Below are positions 8,135 through 24,603 of a stretch of DNA of 64,000 nucleotides, piece after piece; position 1 is the stretch's first letter, and the number at the start of each line of letters is the position of its first letter. The notes under the pieces are model-generated. The model did not search any database. It saw only the letters and a list, made by a program, of their open reading frames with translations, and was not told the DNA's origin. The position numbers and the translations under genes were made by a program. The stretch comes from Galbibacter mesophilus (GTDB taxonomy: Bacteria; Bacteroidota; Bacteroidia; Flavobacteriales; Flavobacteriaceae): assembly GCF_023721415.1 (NCBI RefSeq), contig NZ_JAMQVC010000004.1, positions 186,001 through 250,000 of the forward strand. Reading direction: 5' to 3'.

Positions 8135-8689
8135 TTGAATAAGATTTTAACCGACAAACTTTCCTACGTAAGTGGTTACAGAAAACACCGCCAAAAGACC
8201 GCAGATTATGTATTAGAACATCCCGAAATGTTTCCCGACCTACTACAATTCTGTTTTTCTAATGATGAAGAATTGTCTCATAAAGCTTGTTGGGTCACAG
8301 AATTTGTGTGCAAGAAAAAACTGGAATGGATTTACCCGCATTTGGATGAATTCACCCAAAAACTGCCGTCTTTAACCAATGACTCCGCCATACGACCTTT
8401 AGCAAAGGTGTGTGAATTGTTGTGCGGAAAATATTTTAAGAAGAACGGAACAGACCTTTCCCTCACACTAAAAGAAGAACACCTAAACAAACTGGTAGAA
8501 ATAAATTTTGATTGGCTTATCGCAGACGTGAAAGTAGCCACCAAAGCTTATGCTATGCAAAACCTATTTTATCTCGGTCAAAAATACGATTGGATTTACC
8601 CAGAATTAAAACAAACCCTTTTAAACGGAATTCCAAATCATTCTTCTGCCTACAAAGCGCGGGCACAGCATATTTTGAGAAGGATTTAG
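8135..8689 (+). CDS. Conserved hypothetical helical-repeat protein
   Basis: The 184-residue protein starts at TTG (8135), preceded by AAGGA at a proper distance; the first ATG lies 31 codons in and would cut conserved-looking sequence. It is all-helical with HEAT-like repeats (HKACWVTEFVCKKKLEWIYPHL; ATKAYAMQNLFYLGQKYDWIYPEL), where WIYP recurs. Related flavobacterial proteins are often labelled adenylosuccinate lyase, but no lyase signature is present, and that name should not be used. Function unknown. Confidence 0.75.
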   Translation: MNKILTDKLSYVSGYRKHRQKTADYVLEHPEMFPDLLQFCFSNDEELSHKACWVTEFVCKKKLEWIYPHLDEFTQKLPSLTNDSAIRPLAKVCELLCGKYFKKNGTDLSLTLKEEHLNKLVEINFDWLIADVKVATKAYAMQNLFYLGQKYDWIYPELKQTLLNGIPNHSSAYKARAQHILRRI

Positions 8690-8738
8690 AAACTTTTTGT
8701 GCTTTAAAAATATGTCTACCATAATCCAGCTCTCCAAT

Positions 8739-9275
8739 TCACGTGGTAGTAATAAAATACTCTAAAATTCTAAGCGTCGCAAAAATTAAAAATGCTATAA
8801 CGAACTTTAAAACTGTTTTTGTCTTCAAATTAAACGCTCCTGTAGACAAGACTAACATTTTAATTCCATTGATCAATTTTTGTCGATGTATCCAAAGTAT
8901 AATTATAAGTAGAGTTTGGTAAATTAGCGCTGCTTTTAATGCTCCCAAATTAACATCAAAATAAATATCCTGTAAAATAACGTTTACCAGAATAGTCGTT
9001 GTAAAAAGACAACCTATTATCCTCGTTTTCTTAAATAAAATGAGCAACCCTCCAATTATTTCTAAAGCCCCAAGCGTTAAGGCAAAAGATTTAGAATAGC
9101 CATAAAATGCCCACATTATTTCCATACCAGAGAGCTCTGGAATGGTTTTATTGATATCTATAGCTCCTTCGAACTGAATAATTTTGGCGCCTCCGTAAAT
9201 AAACATCGCTAACACCACTATCCAGCTTAATGAGTTCTCAAAAATATCCAGCCAATCCTTCTTATTTAAATTCAT
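8739..9275 (-). CDS. DoxX-like membrane protein
   Basis: About 178 residues with four to five hydrophobic helices. The pattern WIVVLAMFIYGGAKIIQF and ALEIIGGLLILFKKTRIIG fits the DoxX/DoxD-like family of small inner-membrane proteins, often tied to quinone or thiol redox. The gene is convergent with the preceding one, 50 bp away, and stands alone. Confidence 0.75.
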   Translation of the reverse strand: MNLNKKDWLDIFENSLSWIVVLAMFIYGGAKIIQFEGAIDINKTIPELSGMEIMWAFYGYSKSFALTLGALEIIGGLLILFKKTRIIGCLFTTTILVNVILQDIYFDVNLGALKAALIYQTLLIIILWIHRQKLINGIKMLVLSTGAFNLKTKTVLKFVIAFLIFATLRILEYFITTT

Positions 9276-9317
9276 TCGAGTTTGCTATTTTTTGGTGTTT
9301 GTAGAATGGCTTAAAAA

Positions 9318-9593
9318 TTAAACTCCTGTATACTGCTTAACATGCAATATCCTTAATATATAAACTACATCCTCTTCCACAAAATAGTGAATTGAGTAAT
9401 TGAATTTACTGAAATGTATTCTTCGAACCTTTTTATAATAAAGCTGAAATAGAAACGGATTACTCTTTAGATATTCAATCTGATTTATGAAGTCTGAGCT
9501 GAAGGCGCTTTCGAGATTCGACATTTTGTAATAACATAAAGCCTTTTGAATATCCCTTTCCGCTTCACTTGAAATATTAATTCGATATTCCAT
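9318..9593 (-). CDS. RelE/ParE-family toxin
   Basis: The 91-residue product has the ParE/RelE fold pattern: an N-terminal strand (YRINISSEAERDIQKALCYY), a two-helix hairpin, and C-terminal strands with RRIHFSKFNYSIHYFV and VVYILRILHVKQ. Such toxins act on gyrase (ParE) or ribosome-bound mRNA (RelE); the sequence alone does not decide which. Its start lies inside the end of the antitoxin gene (17-bp overlap), the classical coupled arrangement. Confidence 0.88.
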   Translation of the reverse strand: MEYRINISSEAERDIQKALCYYKMSNLESAFSSDFINQIEYLKSNPFLFQLYYKKVRRIHFSKFNYSIHYFVEEDVVYILRILHVKQYTGV

Positions 9594-21380: not shown

Positions 21381-22106
21381 TTATTGGTTACGTGATGTTT
21401 TTGCGTTTATGATAAATCCTGTGATAAATAGCCCGTAATGCATATAATTCAAAACGGTAAGTAAAACTACGTAAGTTAAATGAGTGAAGTGTAATTTGTG
21501 AGCAAATAAGAATACCGGGGTTACTGTTATGTAAAAACAACAAGTACTTAAAACAATCCAAAAGTCTAAAGAAAGTAAGATCTGGTGAATTCGATTGCTG
21601 AATAATACCATTCTAAAGTAAAGGTTTGAAGCAATAAATATGGATAAGGCACCGTATATGTATATCCCTCGCATTAAGGACCTATTAAACGTTTCGAAGT
21701 TGAAATAGAAATCTGAAAGTACAACGATGGGAAATATAACTGCTAAAATTGAAATTATAAGCTTATCATATTTGTACTGAATTAATGAATGGTAATAGAT
21801 TAGATAGAGTGCAAAAATAAAGACGCAATTTATGTTAAACATCCAAATATTCATCCTTAAAAAATCGGGTGGAAGAAAAATCAACAACCTTTGTATCAAC
21901 CATGAATTTTCATAATATTTATAGCTGAAAGCTACTATTCCAGCTAGAATTTCAACTAGAACTGTGAGAATCAAAATAAAGATAATATATCTTGCTCCCG
22001 TTTTCTTGAAAGATGAATAAGTGGCTATCGCAAGAATCATAGCTACAACTTCCAACAGTATCGGTGAAAGCCTAAAATAATCTATGAAATTTAAATCTGT
22101 ATTCAT
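21381..22106 (-). CDS. Seven-TM membrane protein of unknown function (paralogue of 23141-23848)
   Basis: The 241-residue product is almost entirely hydrophobic with about seven transmembrane helices and short loops. It aligns along its length with the protein at 23141-23848: an N-terminal YFRLSPILLEVVAMILAIATY helix, the central NIWMFNINCVFIFALYLIYYHS (compare NYWVYNLFRILTFYIYLLYFFN), LDFWIVLSTCCFYITVTPVFLF (compare LAFWLIIGSVFYYLLTIPIMMF), and the terminal GFIINAKT shared by both. No enzymatic motif is visible. It lies downstream of a terminator and a decayed copy of the family, so it needs its own promoter. Confidence 0.8.
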   Translation of the reverse strand: MNTDLNFIDYFRLSPILLEVVAMILAIATYSSFKKTGARYIIFILILTVLVEILAGIVAFSYKYYENSWLIQRLLIFLPPDFLRMNIWMFNINCVFIFALYLIYYHSLIQYKYDKLIISILAVIFPIVVLSDFYFNFETFNRSLMRGIYIYGALSIFIASNLYFRMVLFSNRIHQILLSLDFWIVLSTCCFYITVTPVFLFAHKLHFTHLTYVVLLTVLNYMHYGLFITGFIINAKTSRNQ

Positions 22107-22203
22107 AAGGAGGACATTCCCCCTACCAGTGTGTTAAAAGGGGATATTTCTTGAAGGTTAACACTTTTTGATTTTTCTATAATTAATTACGCTCCTGTAT
22201 AAA

Positions 22204-22378
22204 GCATAGTTTTTTTTATATTTGATTTGGTTTTAATTTCTTAAAATGAAATTAAAATTCTCTTCCGGTTTAACCAAGAGGTATTTAATAAAATTATTTT
22301 TTGTTGTTTTTTTGGCATTAATTACAATACCAGTAATAAAGCTACTTTAAAGAATAATTAAAAAAAACAGAATAAAAT
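22204..22378 (-). pseudogene. Decayed third copy: 3' end of a 7-TM gene plus following spacer
   Basis: This stretch matches 23046-23230 along its length with scattered substitutions and small indels. Anchors are TGATTTGGTT, GAAATTAAAATT, TCTTCCGG, AACCAAGA and TTTTGGCATTAATTA (copies differ slightly). Read on the minus strand it still encodes SSFITGIVINAKK, like the C-terminus GSFIIGFIINAKT, but a stop codon replaces the preceding Tyr codon. The similarity runs on to the start-codon region of the lost downstream lipoprotein gene. This is the remains of another gene pair in the array. Confidence 0.75.
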
Positions 22379-22408
22379 ATTGAAGTCTATAAATTCACTA
22401 GCATAAAA

Positions 22409-22437
22409 AAAGTGCCGATTTAAAATCTCGGCACTTT
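22409..22437 (-). terminator. Terminator of the FWW/WPP-7TM operon
   Basis: A 10-bp stem, AAAGTGCCGA (22409-22418) with TCGGCACTTT (22428-22437), is followed on the minus strand by a run of six T. It ends the unit 24243 to 22506. Confidence 0.88.
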
Positions 22438-22505
22438 ATAAACTTTATTGATTTGACAGTTGTTATTAATGTCTTACATACACATATTCATGTCGCCTCT
22501 TAATT

Positions 22506-23066
22506 TTATTTAGGGGGCCAATCGAATATAGAGTCATTATATCCATCCACATCGTCAATCATAACTTGCTGCCCACCATCACCGCTCGATTTACTAGATC
22601 CTTTGGATTTCAAAACACCTGTTGGTTGCATAAATAAAGTTACACTACCATTTTTATGCCCTTCACCGTATTTCCCCAATCTAAACCGGATACCCAAGTT
22701 TGAATATCCTTTTTGATTAGCCTCCTGTTTTACGAAAGCCAAATAATTCTCTAAATCTTCAACAGTCCACCAAAAATCTTTTGCATGAGCTATCCCTTTT
22801 TGCTGTAGGTACAAAGGTTGTATAGCATTGTCATAATTTTGTCTTAATGCTTCCGCTTCACTTTTAGTAAGGCATTTTTCGGGCCTTTCAATTTCCTCGA
22901 CAGATTCTTGGCTTGATTGAACAGTCTCATCAGAAGATGATAAAAAATAATTAGAACCAGAAACGGCTCCACTTTCATTTGACACTGTTGTTTCGTCCTC
23001 TTTAGAACATTTAACAAATAATGCTAAAGCACAAAACAGTGCAACGCATAAATAAATTTTTTTCAT
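22506..23066 (-). CDS. FWW/WPP-family lipoprotein (undescribed family)
   Basis: The start at 23066 (MKKIYLCVALF) gives a lipoprotein signal with lipobox LFVKC followed by SKED; the open frame upstream to 23120 is not needed. After a Ser/Glu-rich linker (residues 25-63) comes a domain of about 120 residues shared with the protein at 23863-24243. In order it has EKCLTKSEAEALRQNY, HAKDFWWTVEDLENYLAF, GYSNLGIRFRLGKY, MQPTGV and the C-terminal DDVDGYNDSIFDWPPK. I do not recognise the family. It follows the 7-TM gene by 74 bp in the same operon. Confidence 0.8.
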   Translation of the reverse strand: MKKIYLCVALFCALALFVKCSKEDETTVSNESGAVSGSNYFLSSSDETVQSSQESVEEIERPEKCLTKSEAEALRQNYDNAIQPLYLQQKGIAHAKDFWWTVEDLENYLAFVKQEANQKGYSNLGIRFRLGKYGEGHKNGSVTLFMQPTGVLKSKGSSKSSGDGGQQVMIDDVDGYNDSIFDWPPK

Positions 23067-23140
23067 AATTGATTTGGTTATAATTTCTTGCAGTGAAATT
23101 AAAATTATCTTCCGGATCAACCAAGAAGTTTTTTGTAAAA

Positions 23141-23848
23141 TTATTTATTCCTATCAGTATTAGTTTTGGCATTAATTATAAAACCAATGATAAAACTTCC
23201 GTAAAGAATAATATTAGACAAAAATAGAATTGTCACATATACTTCTTGAAATCTTTGAAAGAATTTACCAAACATCATAATTGGAATTGTTAGTAAGTAG
23301 TAAAATACAGAACCAATAATTAACCAAAAAGCTAAATCTTTATAGATTTTCAGTACTTTATCAGAGTTGAAAACCTCACCAAAATAAAGGATTGCCCCAA
23401 TCAGTATTCCAAAACTTCCAAAAATCCTAATTATCATTTGATTTCCTTCAAACAAACTATTGCTATCAATTATAAATTCAATTCCAATACCAATGGAATA
23501 AATTAGGAGCAATCCACAGATAATAACTTTGTCTTTTCTTTGCTTGAAATAATTAAAGAAATATAAAAGATATATGTAAAAAGTTAATATTCTAAATAAA
23601 TTGTATACCCAATAATTTCTTGCTAAAAGATTTTCAGGAACAAATTCTTTTAAAAACAATGAGATACTTGTCTCTTTATGGAAGTAACAGTAAACTGGGA
23701 TGTACGCTATAAACTCTGTTGTTAAAGTTAATAACAACAAGTATAAAAAATACCGATTAGGAGTAAATCGGTATTTTTTATAAGTTAAAATTGCTACTAA
23801 AGTTGTAATAGCAATTAAAAAATGATTTAAGTACCTTAAGTAATACAT
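23141..23848 (-). CDS. Seven-TM membrane protein of unknown function, paired with FWW/WPP proteins
   Basis: The 235-residue product has about seven hydrophobic helices, for example residues 8-22, 32-55, 78-101, 107-126, 137-160, 170-192 and 206-229, and ends with GFIINAKTNTDRNK. It starts 14 bp after the cytoplasmic FWW/WPP gene, so the two are surely co-translated. It is a paralogue of 21381-22106. No kinase, transporter or protease motif is visible. A role as membrane partner or sensor for the FWW/WPP proteins is inferred only from gene order and co-duplication. Confidence 0.8.
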   Translation of the reverse strand: MYYLRYLNHFLIAITTLVAILTYKKYRFTPNRYFLYLLLLTLTTEFIAYIPVYCYFHKETSISLFLKEFVPENLLARNYWVYNLFRILTFYIYLLYFFNYFKQRKDKVIICGLLLIYSIGIGIEFIIDSNSLFEGNQMIIRIFGSFGILIGAILYFGEVFNSDKVLKIYKDLAFWLIIGSVFYYLLTIPIMMFGKFFQRFQEVYVTILFLSNIILYGSFIIGFIINAKTNTDRNK

Positions 23849-23862
23849 CTAGGATGGATTAG

Positions 23863-24243
23863 CTACGCAGGAGGCCATTCGGAATAACTATCATTATAAG
23901 CATCTACATCTTGAATCATTATTTGAGAACTGGCGCTTTTTGTAAGTGTGCTGGATTCCTGCACACCTGTAGGTTTTATAAATGCAGAAATATTACCTTC
24001 CTTTTCATCGTCTTCATATTTACCTAAAGAAAAACGCAACCCAAGCTCTTTATAACCTTTTTTCTTTGCTTCTTCTTTAAAATAAGCTAAATACTCTTCC
24101 AGTTCTTCCACACTCCACCAAAACTCGTGGGAAAAATCTTTCCCAAACTCTTTTTTAAGTGCTTTTTCAATGGTTTTTACGTATTTGTCTTGTAGTTTAC
24201 TCGCCTTCTCCGGCGAAATACATTTTGTTGGTTTTTTTGCCAT
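23863..24243 (-). CDS. FWW/WPP-family protein without signal peptide
   Basis: The 126-residue product has no signal sequence, so it is probably cytoplasmic. It is the homologue of the lipoprotein at 22506-23066: KCISPEKASKLQDKYV, HEFWWSVEELEEYLAYFKEEAKKKGY, LGLRFSLGKY, IKPTGV, and a C-terminal QDVDAYNDSYSEWPPA. The invariant features are one Cys near the start, FWW(S/T)VE(D/E)LE, LG(L/I)RF.LGKY, PTGV and DVDxYNDSxxxWPP. It is the first gene of the operon. Function unknown. Confidence 0.8.
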   Translation of the reverse strand: MAKKPTKCISPEKASKLQDKYVKTIEKALKKEFGKDFSHEFWWSVEELEEYLAYFKEEAKKKGYKELGLRFSLGKYEDDEKEGNISAFIKPTGVQESSTLTKSASSQIMIQDVDAYNDSYSEWPPA

Positions 24244-24603
24244 TTTGTAGTAGTATTGATTTAGTAAAAAATTTTAGTTAGTAGGGTATACATATAATGT
24301 ACCGCTGGTAAAAATAAAAAACTTTAACAATTATAATACCTCCCCGGACACTTTTTTATCGTGTATTTTCCGTTTTTAAATAAATATCGCAAAACCTAGA
24401 AGAATTGTTACGAGTACGTAAATACTTACTTCTTGAAAACCATTGGTTGCTCCGAAAGCCTCTTCAATTCGCAAAAAGCTTTCTATGCTTAACGAGAACG
24501 TCGGTTTGACTTTAGCATTTACCGCTTTGTAAACAAAATTGTGTATTTTTATAACGCTTAAAAGAGAGATTGTAATTTGTAATGAAAATTGCTTCATAAA
24601 GCT
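24244..24603. other. 360-bp spacer between divergent units
   Basis: The region separates the WPP operon (minus) from fur (plus). It presumably holds the WPP operon promoter. The only open frame (24376-24597, minus) has random-looking composition and its start abuts the fur promoter, so I do not call a gene. Confidence 0.4.

Follow-up and report, generated by a model that had tools for sequence, protein, structure and literature searches.

Paired FWW/WPP and seven-transmembrane genes as the probable input half of a split-sensor two-component system

A tandem array of two protein families

The window analyzed here is a 64-kb stretch of DNA whose minus strand carries a tandem array of four genes (Table 1). 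In reading order, these encode a leaderless protein with FWW and WPP motifs (FWW protein), a seven-transmembrane (7-TM) protein, a leader-bearing FWW protein, and a second 7-TM protein. A preliminary description of the locus had called the same four ORFs, with the same spacing of the first pair, and its claims of homology were borne out: the two small proteins are 45% identical (E 2.2e-33) and have FWW, PTGV, and DVDxYNDSxxxWPP in common, and the two 7-TM proteins are paralogs (31% identity, E 5.9e-27) that both contain GFIINAKT. That description took one small protein to be without a leader, which holds, and the other to be a lipoprotein, which is uncertain, because a Lys precedes the candidate lipid-bearing Cys (FVKC) in an atypical lipobox. 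The start assigned to this second small gene is an inner start within the open frame 22506-23120.

A relic of a duplicated unit separates the second small gene from the second 7-TM gene. It reads IIL*SSFITGIVINAKKTT, followed by a region like that found 5′ of FWW genes, and is made up of 85% and 84% direct repeats spaced 847-854 bp from the corresponding segments of the intact unit. From the relic and its repeats, we infer that the array probably grew and decayed through tandem duplication. A 73-aa ORF with a hydrophobic end (24376-24597, minus strand) is situated 5′ of the leaderless FWW gene; it has no family match and may be a chance ORF.

Table 1. Coordinates of the array features within the 64-kb window
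Feature	Position	Strand	Basis or remark
FWW/WPP protein, leaderless, 126 aa	23863-24243	-	ORF and homology; predicted helix-helix-strand-strand domain plus tail
Conserved C-terminal tail DVDAYNDSYSEWPPA and stop, codons	23863-23910	-	Tail conservation
7-TM protein 1, 235 aa	23141-23848	-	14 bp 3′ of the leaderless FWW gene
FWW/WPP protein with signal-like leader, 186 aa	22506-23066	-	Lipoprotein likely, lipobox atypical
Conserved C-terminal tail DVDGYNDSIFDWPPK and stop, codons	22506-22553	-	Tail conservation
Relic of duplicated unit: 3′ end of a 7-TM gene and region preceding a lost FWW copy	22210-22358	-	
7-TM protein 2, 241 aa	21381-22106	-	Counterpart in the full cluster of sister genome G005, 67% identity

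The preliminary description knew of no family that fits either protein. Profile searches of the window proteins against Pfam, NCBIfam, PHROGs, and PADLOC agree, having returned no convincing match and placed neither protein in a characterized family. When 96 FWW and 98 7-TM members were scanned against Pfam and NCBIfam, the matches were scattered and weak (best E 2.5e-4). We read as noise the matches of FWW members to NEL (E 2.5e-4, in just two of the 96) and to the MAG3960 lipoprotein (E 3.4e-4, one of the 96), that of one of the 98 7-TM members to the folate ECF S component (E 6.6e-4), and those to PADLOC JAB (E 0.0038) and to a PHROG of unknown function (E 0.0059). The NCBIfam lipoprotein or toxin models BSAP5b, BamJ, and PG1828 all aligned to the N-terminal part of the leader-bearing protein, at 14.6-17.4 bits against curated cut-offs of 50-380. 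With PDB sequence profiles, the best E for FWW was 0.12 and the 7-TM protein had no hit; structural comparison of the FWW model with solved folds gave no clear match. Among the titles and abstract openings covered by a literature search, we recognized no paper on the module described below.

AlphaFold modeled the FWW protein as helix, helix, strand, strand, and a tail of mixed confidence (pLDDT 87.4). The model of 7-TM protein 1 has the seven membrane-length helices expected from the preliminary description, the last of them long (pLDDT 95.5). Because Lys and Arg occur in the loops after helices 1 and 3, the positive-inside rule suggests that the N-terminus of this protein is outside and its C-terminus inside. 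The conserved columns of the 7-TM alignment contain no obvious catalytic set and no protease-like residue set. The C-terminal WPP motif is real at this locus, but it is the local form of a wider family tail, LNxGxxGxPPxxYP, which is conserved and preceded by a variable linker. Among the 96 aligned rows, PP is present in 72/74 and 73/73 of those with a letter at the two positions; about 22/96 have a gap there, so that some members lack the pair. For this extreme C-terminus, a role in docking or processing had been proposed; it found no support. In the model, mean pLDDT is 86 at residues 111-120 and 53 at the last six residues.

Conservation of the pair and its linkage to a histidine kinase

To place the array among its relatives, we collected 118 loci from 115 genomes, comprising 109 of the 122 FWW-positive genomes of the family, five further genomes of the window's genus, and one genome of another family. 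Three genomes contribute two loci each (L008 and L010, L213 and L214, L117 and L118). The set leaves out L217 and L218, which have no FWW gene, and L111, L219, and L233, which at ~100 bases were unusable. The fetched stretch was mostly ~12 kb around the FWW match, and for about twenty loci the choice was manual, guided in part by long or multiple copies. As ORF starts were called mechanically, small overlaps and leader lengths should be taken as approximate.

In these loci, 130 of 135 FWW genes are followed by a 7-TM gene on the same strand within 700 bp, 125 of them within 100 bp (median gap, 10 bp); the remaining five are additional FWW copies, and their clusters do contain a 7-TM gene. An earlier set of relatives gave the same order in 29/29 loci. 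Across 199 genomes of the family, the FWW profile matched 122, the 7-TM profile 124, and both profiles 121 (as read from two tables). Thus, the FWW protein is present in about six in ten sampled family genomes, nearly always with a 7-TM protein, and both lack a family name in the searched libraries. In a phylum-wide draw, the FWW profile matched 38/395 genomes. Of the short loci obtained from the phylum search, some of which are from genomes already counted, all 29 hold FWW and 7-TM genes and 24 hold a kinase. Among these 24 are 4/4 loci from other orders of the class, which represent four of the eight positive genomes outside the order. Multiple 7-TM genes (fragments included) are present in 31/118 loci, with up to four preceding one kinase. 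The proposal of a conserved partner system, and the usual linkage that it implied across relatives, are therefore upheld by the 130/135 adjacent genes and the 121 genomes with both proteins.

Some loci carry additional or unusual members. L100 (6035-7003 and 7282-8214) and L101 (7448-8419) encode long relatives of 310-323 aa, in which by eye two FWW-type domains are present per chain; these adjoin a normal operon of FWW, 7-TM, kinase, and regulator genes. What we take to be 5-oxoprolinase-like genes (pxpABC) flank the module in L108, L110, L114, L116, L008, and L215, perhaps reflecting shared gene order rather than shared function.

The two proteins are partners, as had been proposed, but they do not stand by themselves: mostly they form the front of an operon. 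The recurring cluster comprises an FWW/WPP gene, one to four 7-TM genes, and a short, DesK-like histidine kinase with one TM segment (97/118 loci), with an adjacent LuxR/NarL regulator in 49/118. Both the kinase and the regulator escaped the preliminary description, because they lie outside the window. Profile matches assign HisKA_3 and HATPase_c domains to the kinase and Response_reg and GerE domains to the regulator, and the nearest solved relatives are DesK (YocF) for the former and NarL, VraR, and DesR for the latter. The phospho-acceptor His80 of the kinase, together with the key ATP-site residues Asn188, Gly217, Gly219, and Gly254, is present in 99/99 aligned sequences. The kinase thus has the dimerization domain, catalytic domain, and phospho-acceptor His of a two-component system; for the window, it is unlinked. 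The kinase of the window's genome is 268 aa long and has one hydrophobic N-terminal segment, with no recognized sensor domain and no DesK-type multi-TM sensor. As judged from mechanically called starts, the 7-TM and kinase genes often overlap or abut.

No kinase was found within the fetched stretch in 21/118 loci, the window included; some of these stretches reach the end of the contig. A candidate cognate regulator is adjacent in the 49 loci noted above, and another accompanies the unlinked kinase in the window's genome. In a large group of clusters, the kinase has no regulator nearby (L102, L105, L106, L107, L109, L110, L114, L115, L120-L125, and others). Searching 14 kinase-only genomes, with two further genomes as positive controls, revealed no close regulator in 14/14 (best identity 32-36% in 13, none at the cut-off in one). 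A diverged regulator may exist in these genomes, since regulators at the loci themselves reach down to 34% identity (median 51%). In L117, from a genome of another family of the order, a caspase-like protein (8585-9430; PADLOC caspase, E 6e-23) is encoded just after the regulator.

Cytoplasmic and envelope-facing versions of the small protein had been suggested from the window, and both occur widely. Of the 96 FWW proteins in our tree, 64 have a lipoprotein-like or membrane-anchor leader and 32 are leaderless, the latter count having been 30 before four rows were assigned to that class by eye. The best tree, which is built on few columns, has eight gains or losses of the leader, at least five of them forced by well-supported branches. 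The leader-bearing copy of the window may have regained its leader, as suggested by its nesting inside an otherwise leaderless group, a placement that is well supported and on a long branch. Both forms occur together in several clusters. A tentative reading, which we regard as possible but on the whole doubtful, is that the accessory subunit repeatedly switched membrane sides while keeping its 7-TM partner, tail, and kinase, and that one kinase reads both versions of a shared sensor domain through stacked 7-TM receptors. The module raises the unusual question of one protein domain serving a membrane receptor from either side.

A split cluster and a candidate operator

In the sister genome G005, a single cluster encodes a leader-bearing FWW protein, a 7-TM protein, a leaderless FWW protein, two 7-TM proteins, a 7-TM fragment, the kinase, and the regulator. 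The same kinds of part are found in three places in the window's genome (G000): the window array, a second FWW/7-TM pair at C2:332 kb, and a pair of unlinked kinase and regulator genes at G000:C2:735958-737402, whose products are 90% and 92% identical to their G005 counterparts. Genes that we take to be UvrA-like and LOG-like flank the window array and one side of the G005 cluster; presumably 5-oxoprolinase-like genes flank the second pair and the other side of that cluster. The simplest history suggested by this gene order is that one ancestral cluster was broken into three, with each kind of part retained.

By eye, we chose from upstream regions of the window's genus a dyad, AAGGGG(A/T)nCCCCTT, as a candidate operator. 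This motif is ~23-fold enriched before the operons (26 sites in 42 kb of upstream sequence versus 37 in the remaining 1.41 Mb of the same loci). The pattern GGG(A/T)4-8CCC is present in 24 of 119 upstream regions, those of the 118 loci and of the unlinked kinase, compared with a mean of 1.2 and a maximum of 4 in 100 dinucleotide shuffles; four of the 24 matches come from the window's genus, where the motif was first spotted. When at least 9/12 half-site matches were demanded, the dyad was found at 27/48 loci with a regulator, 1/48 kinase-only loci, and 4/22 loci with neither, classes that follow slightly different rules than the counts of 97 kinases and 49 regulators. Three of the four dyad-bearing "neither" loci belong to the window's genus. 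One simple shuffle per region, scored in the same way, gave 0/48, 0/48, and 3/22, respectively. By counts, the association between dyad and regulator is strong (Fisher p 5e-6); it amounts to two independent events, because the regulator label changes just twice on the kinase tree. Within the window's genome, a dyad precedes the unlinked kinase (C2:735839-735855), and an imperfect one (10/12) precedes the second FWW/7-TM pair. The dyad is absent at the window array, as is GGG(A/T)4-8CCC from the whole 64-kb window, and the strict pattern is not enriched across the whole genome (10 sites versus 17 for a control pattern).

Proposed role, alternatives, and related systems

Because the FWW and 7-TM genes usually stand in front of a sensor kinase in relatives, the two proteins are probably the undescribed sensing end of a signaling system, and we consider it likely that the window array is the sensing (input) half of a split-sensor two-component system built from two undescribed families. 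The 7-TM protein would be the membrane receptor or transducer, since the kinase has one TM segment and no recognized sensor domain of its own. The FWW/WPP protein would be an accessory to it, or a subunit that presents the signal, located on the envelope side in leader-bearing forms and in the cytosol in leaderless ones, and the two proteins would jointly set kinase activity. The kinase would then phosphorylate the regulator, which may bind the candidate dyad and thereby act on its own operon. For the window array, the unlinked kinase and regulator of the same genome would act in trans. Linkage to the kinase provides a testable role for two orphan families, and the dyad offers a ready reporter.

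The main rival places the FWW/WPP and 7-TM proteins at the other end of the pathway, as an envelope-protection or transport module switched on by the kinase and regulator. Such an output would be consistent with the position of the dyad upstream of the FWW gene, with the 21/118 loci in which the pair has no nearby kinase, and with the multiplication of 7-TM genes in 31/118 loci (fragments counted). However, a one-TM kinase with no recognized sensory domain probably needs a partner, and overlapping or abutting 7-TM and kinase genes are frequent (starts called mechanically). Neither protein has a convincing match to a transport or enzyme family, and no obvious catalytic set is conserved in the 7-TM columns. 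We judge the output reading to be unlikely.

Peptide signaling, in which a C-terminal peptide (LNxGxxGxPPxxYP), carried by the FWW/WPP protein or released from it, is processed or received by the 7-TM protein, appears quite improbable. The tail is well conserved beyond its variable linker, as the counts for PP attest, and the four-gene combination of a precursor with a membrane protein, a kinase, and a regulator resembles agr-type systems. Nevertheless, 32/96 of the proteins in the tree are leaderless, residues 111-120 are modeled at fair confidence, and some family members lack the PP pair. The tail is also alike across genera, unlike private pheromones, and the 7-TM family has no protease-like residue set. 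The lack of a nearby kinase in 21/118 loci, and of any in the window, could instead mean that the two proteins form a self-standing system that is near kinases by chance. This we hold to be very improbable indeed, given that a single kind of kinase accompanies them in 97/118 loci and in other orders of the class, and that the window's genome has kept the kinase despite its split cluster.

Under the preferred reading, in which the array is the input half, several known systems offer parallels. The 7TMR-DISM receptors also have seven TM helices and a signaling setting, but their 7-TM part is typically fused to signaling domains, whereas the present 7-TM protein stands alone. The window proteins did not match this family (Pfam PF07695); 7TMR-DISM_7TM matched one of the 98 members weakly (E 0.0014), which we likewise read as noise, and the other 97 were unmatched at E 0.01. 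In the UhpABC system of enteric bacteria, a kinase and a NarL-type regulator work with a separate multi-TM sensor protein, a plan like that of the present module. UhpC is a transporter-like protein of a known family, unlike the present 7-TM family, which has no convincing family match, and UhpABC is not known to include an FWW protein. DesK/DesR of Bacillus likewise joins a HisKA_3-type kinase to a NarL/LuxR-type regulator, and both proteins are among the nearest solved relatives noted above. DesK has its own multi-TM sensor within the kinase chain; the kinase of the present module has one TM segment, and the 7-TM and FWW proteins are encoded by separate genes. The abstract openings on QseG-QseE and LiaFSR, which name no 7-TM component, describe a lipoprotein or other accessory protein that modulates a kinase (PMC12691602, PMC3543457), and in this action on a kinase these proteins resemble, by role, the proposed FWW subunit.
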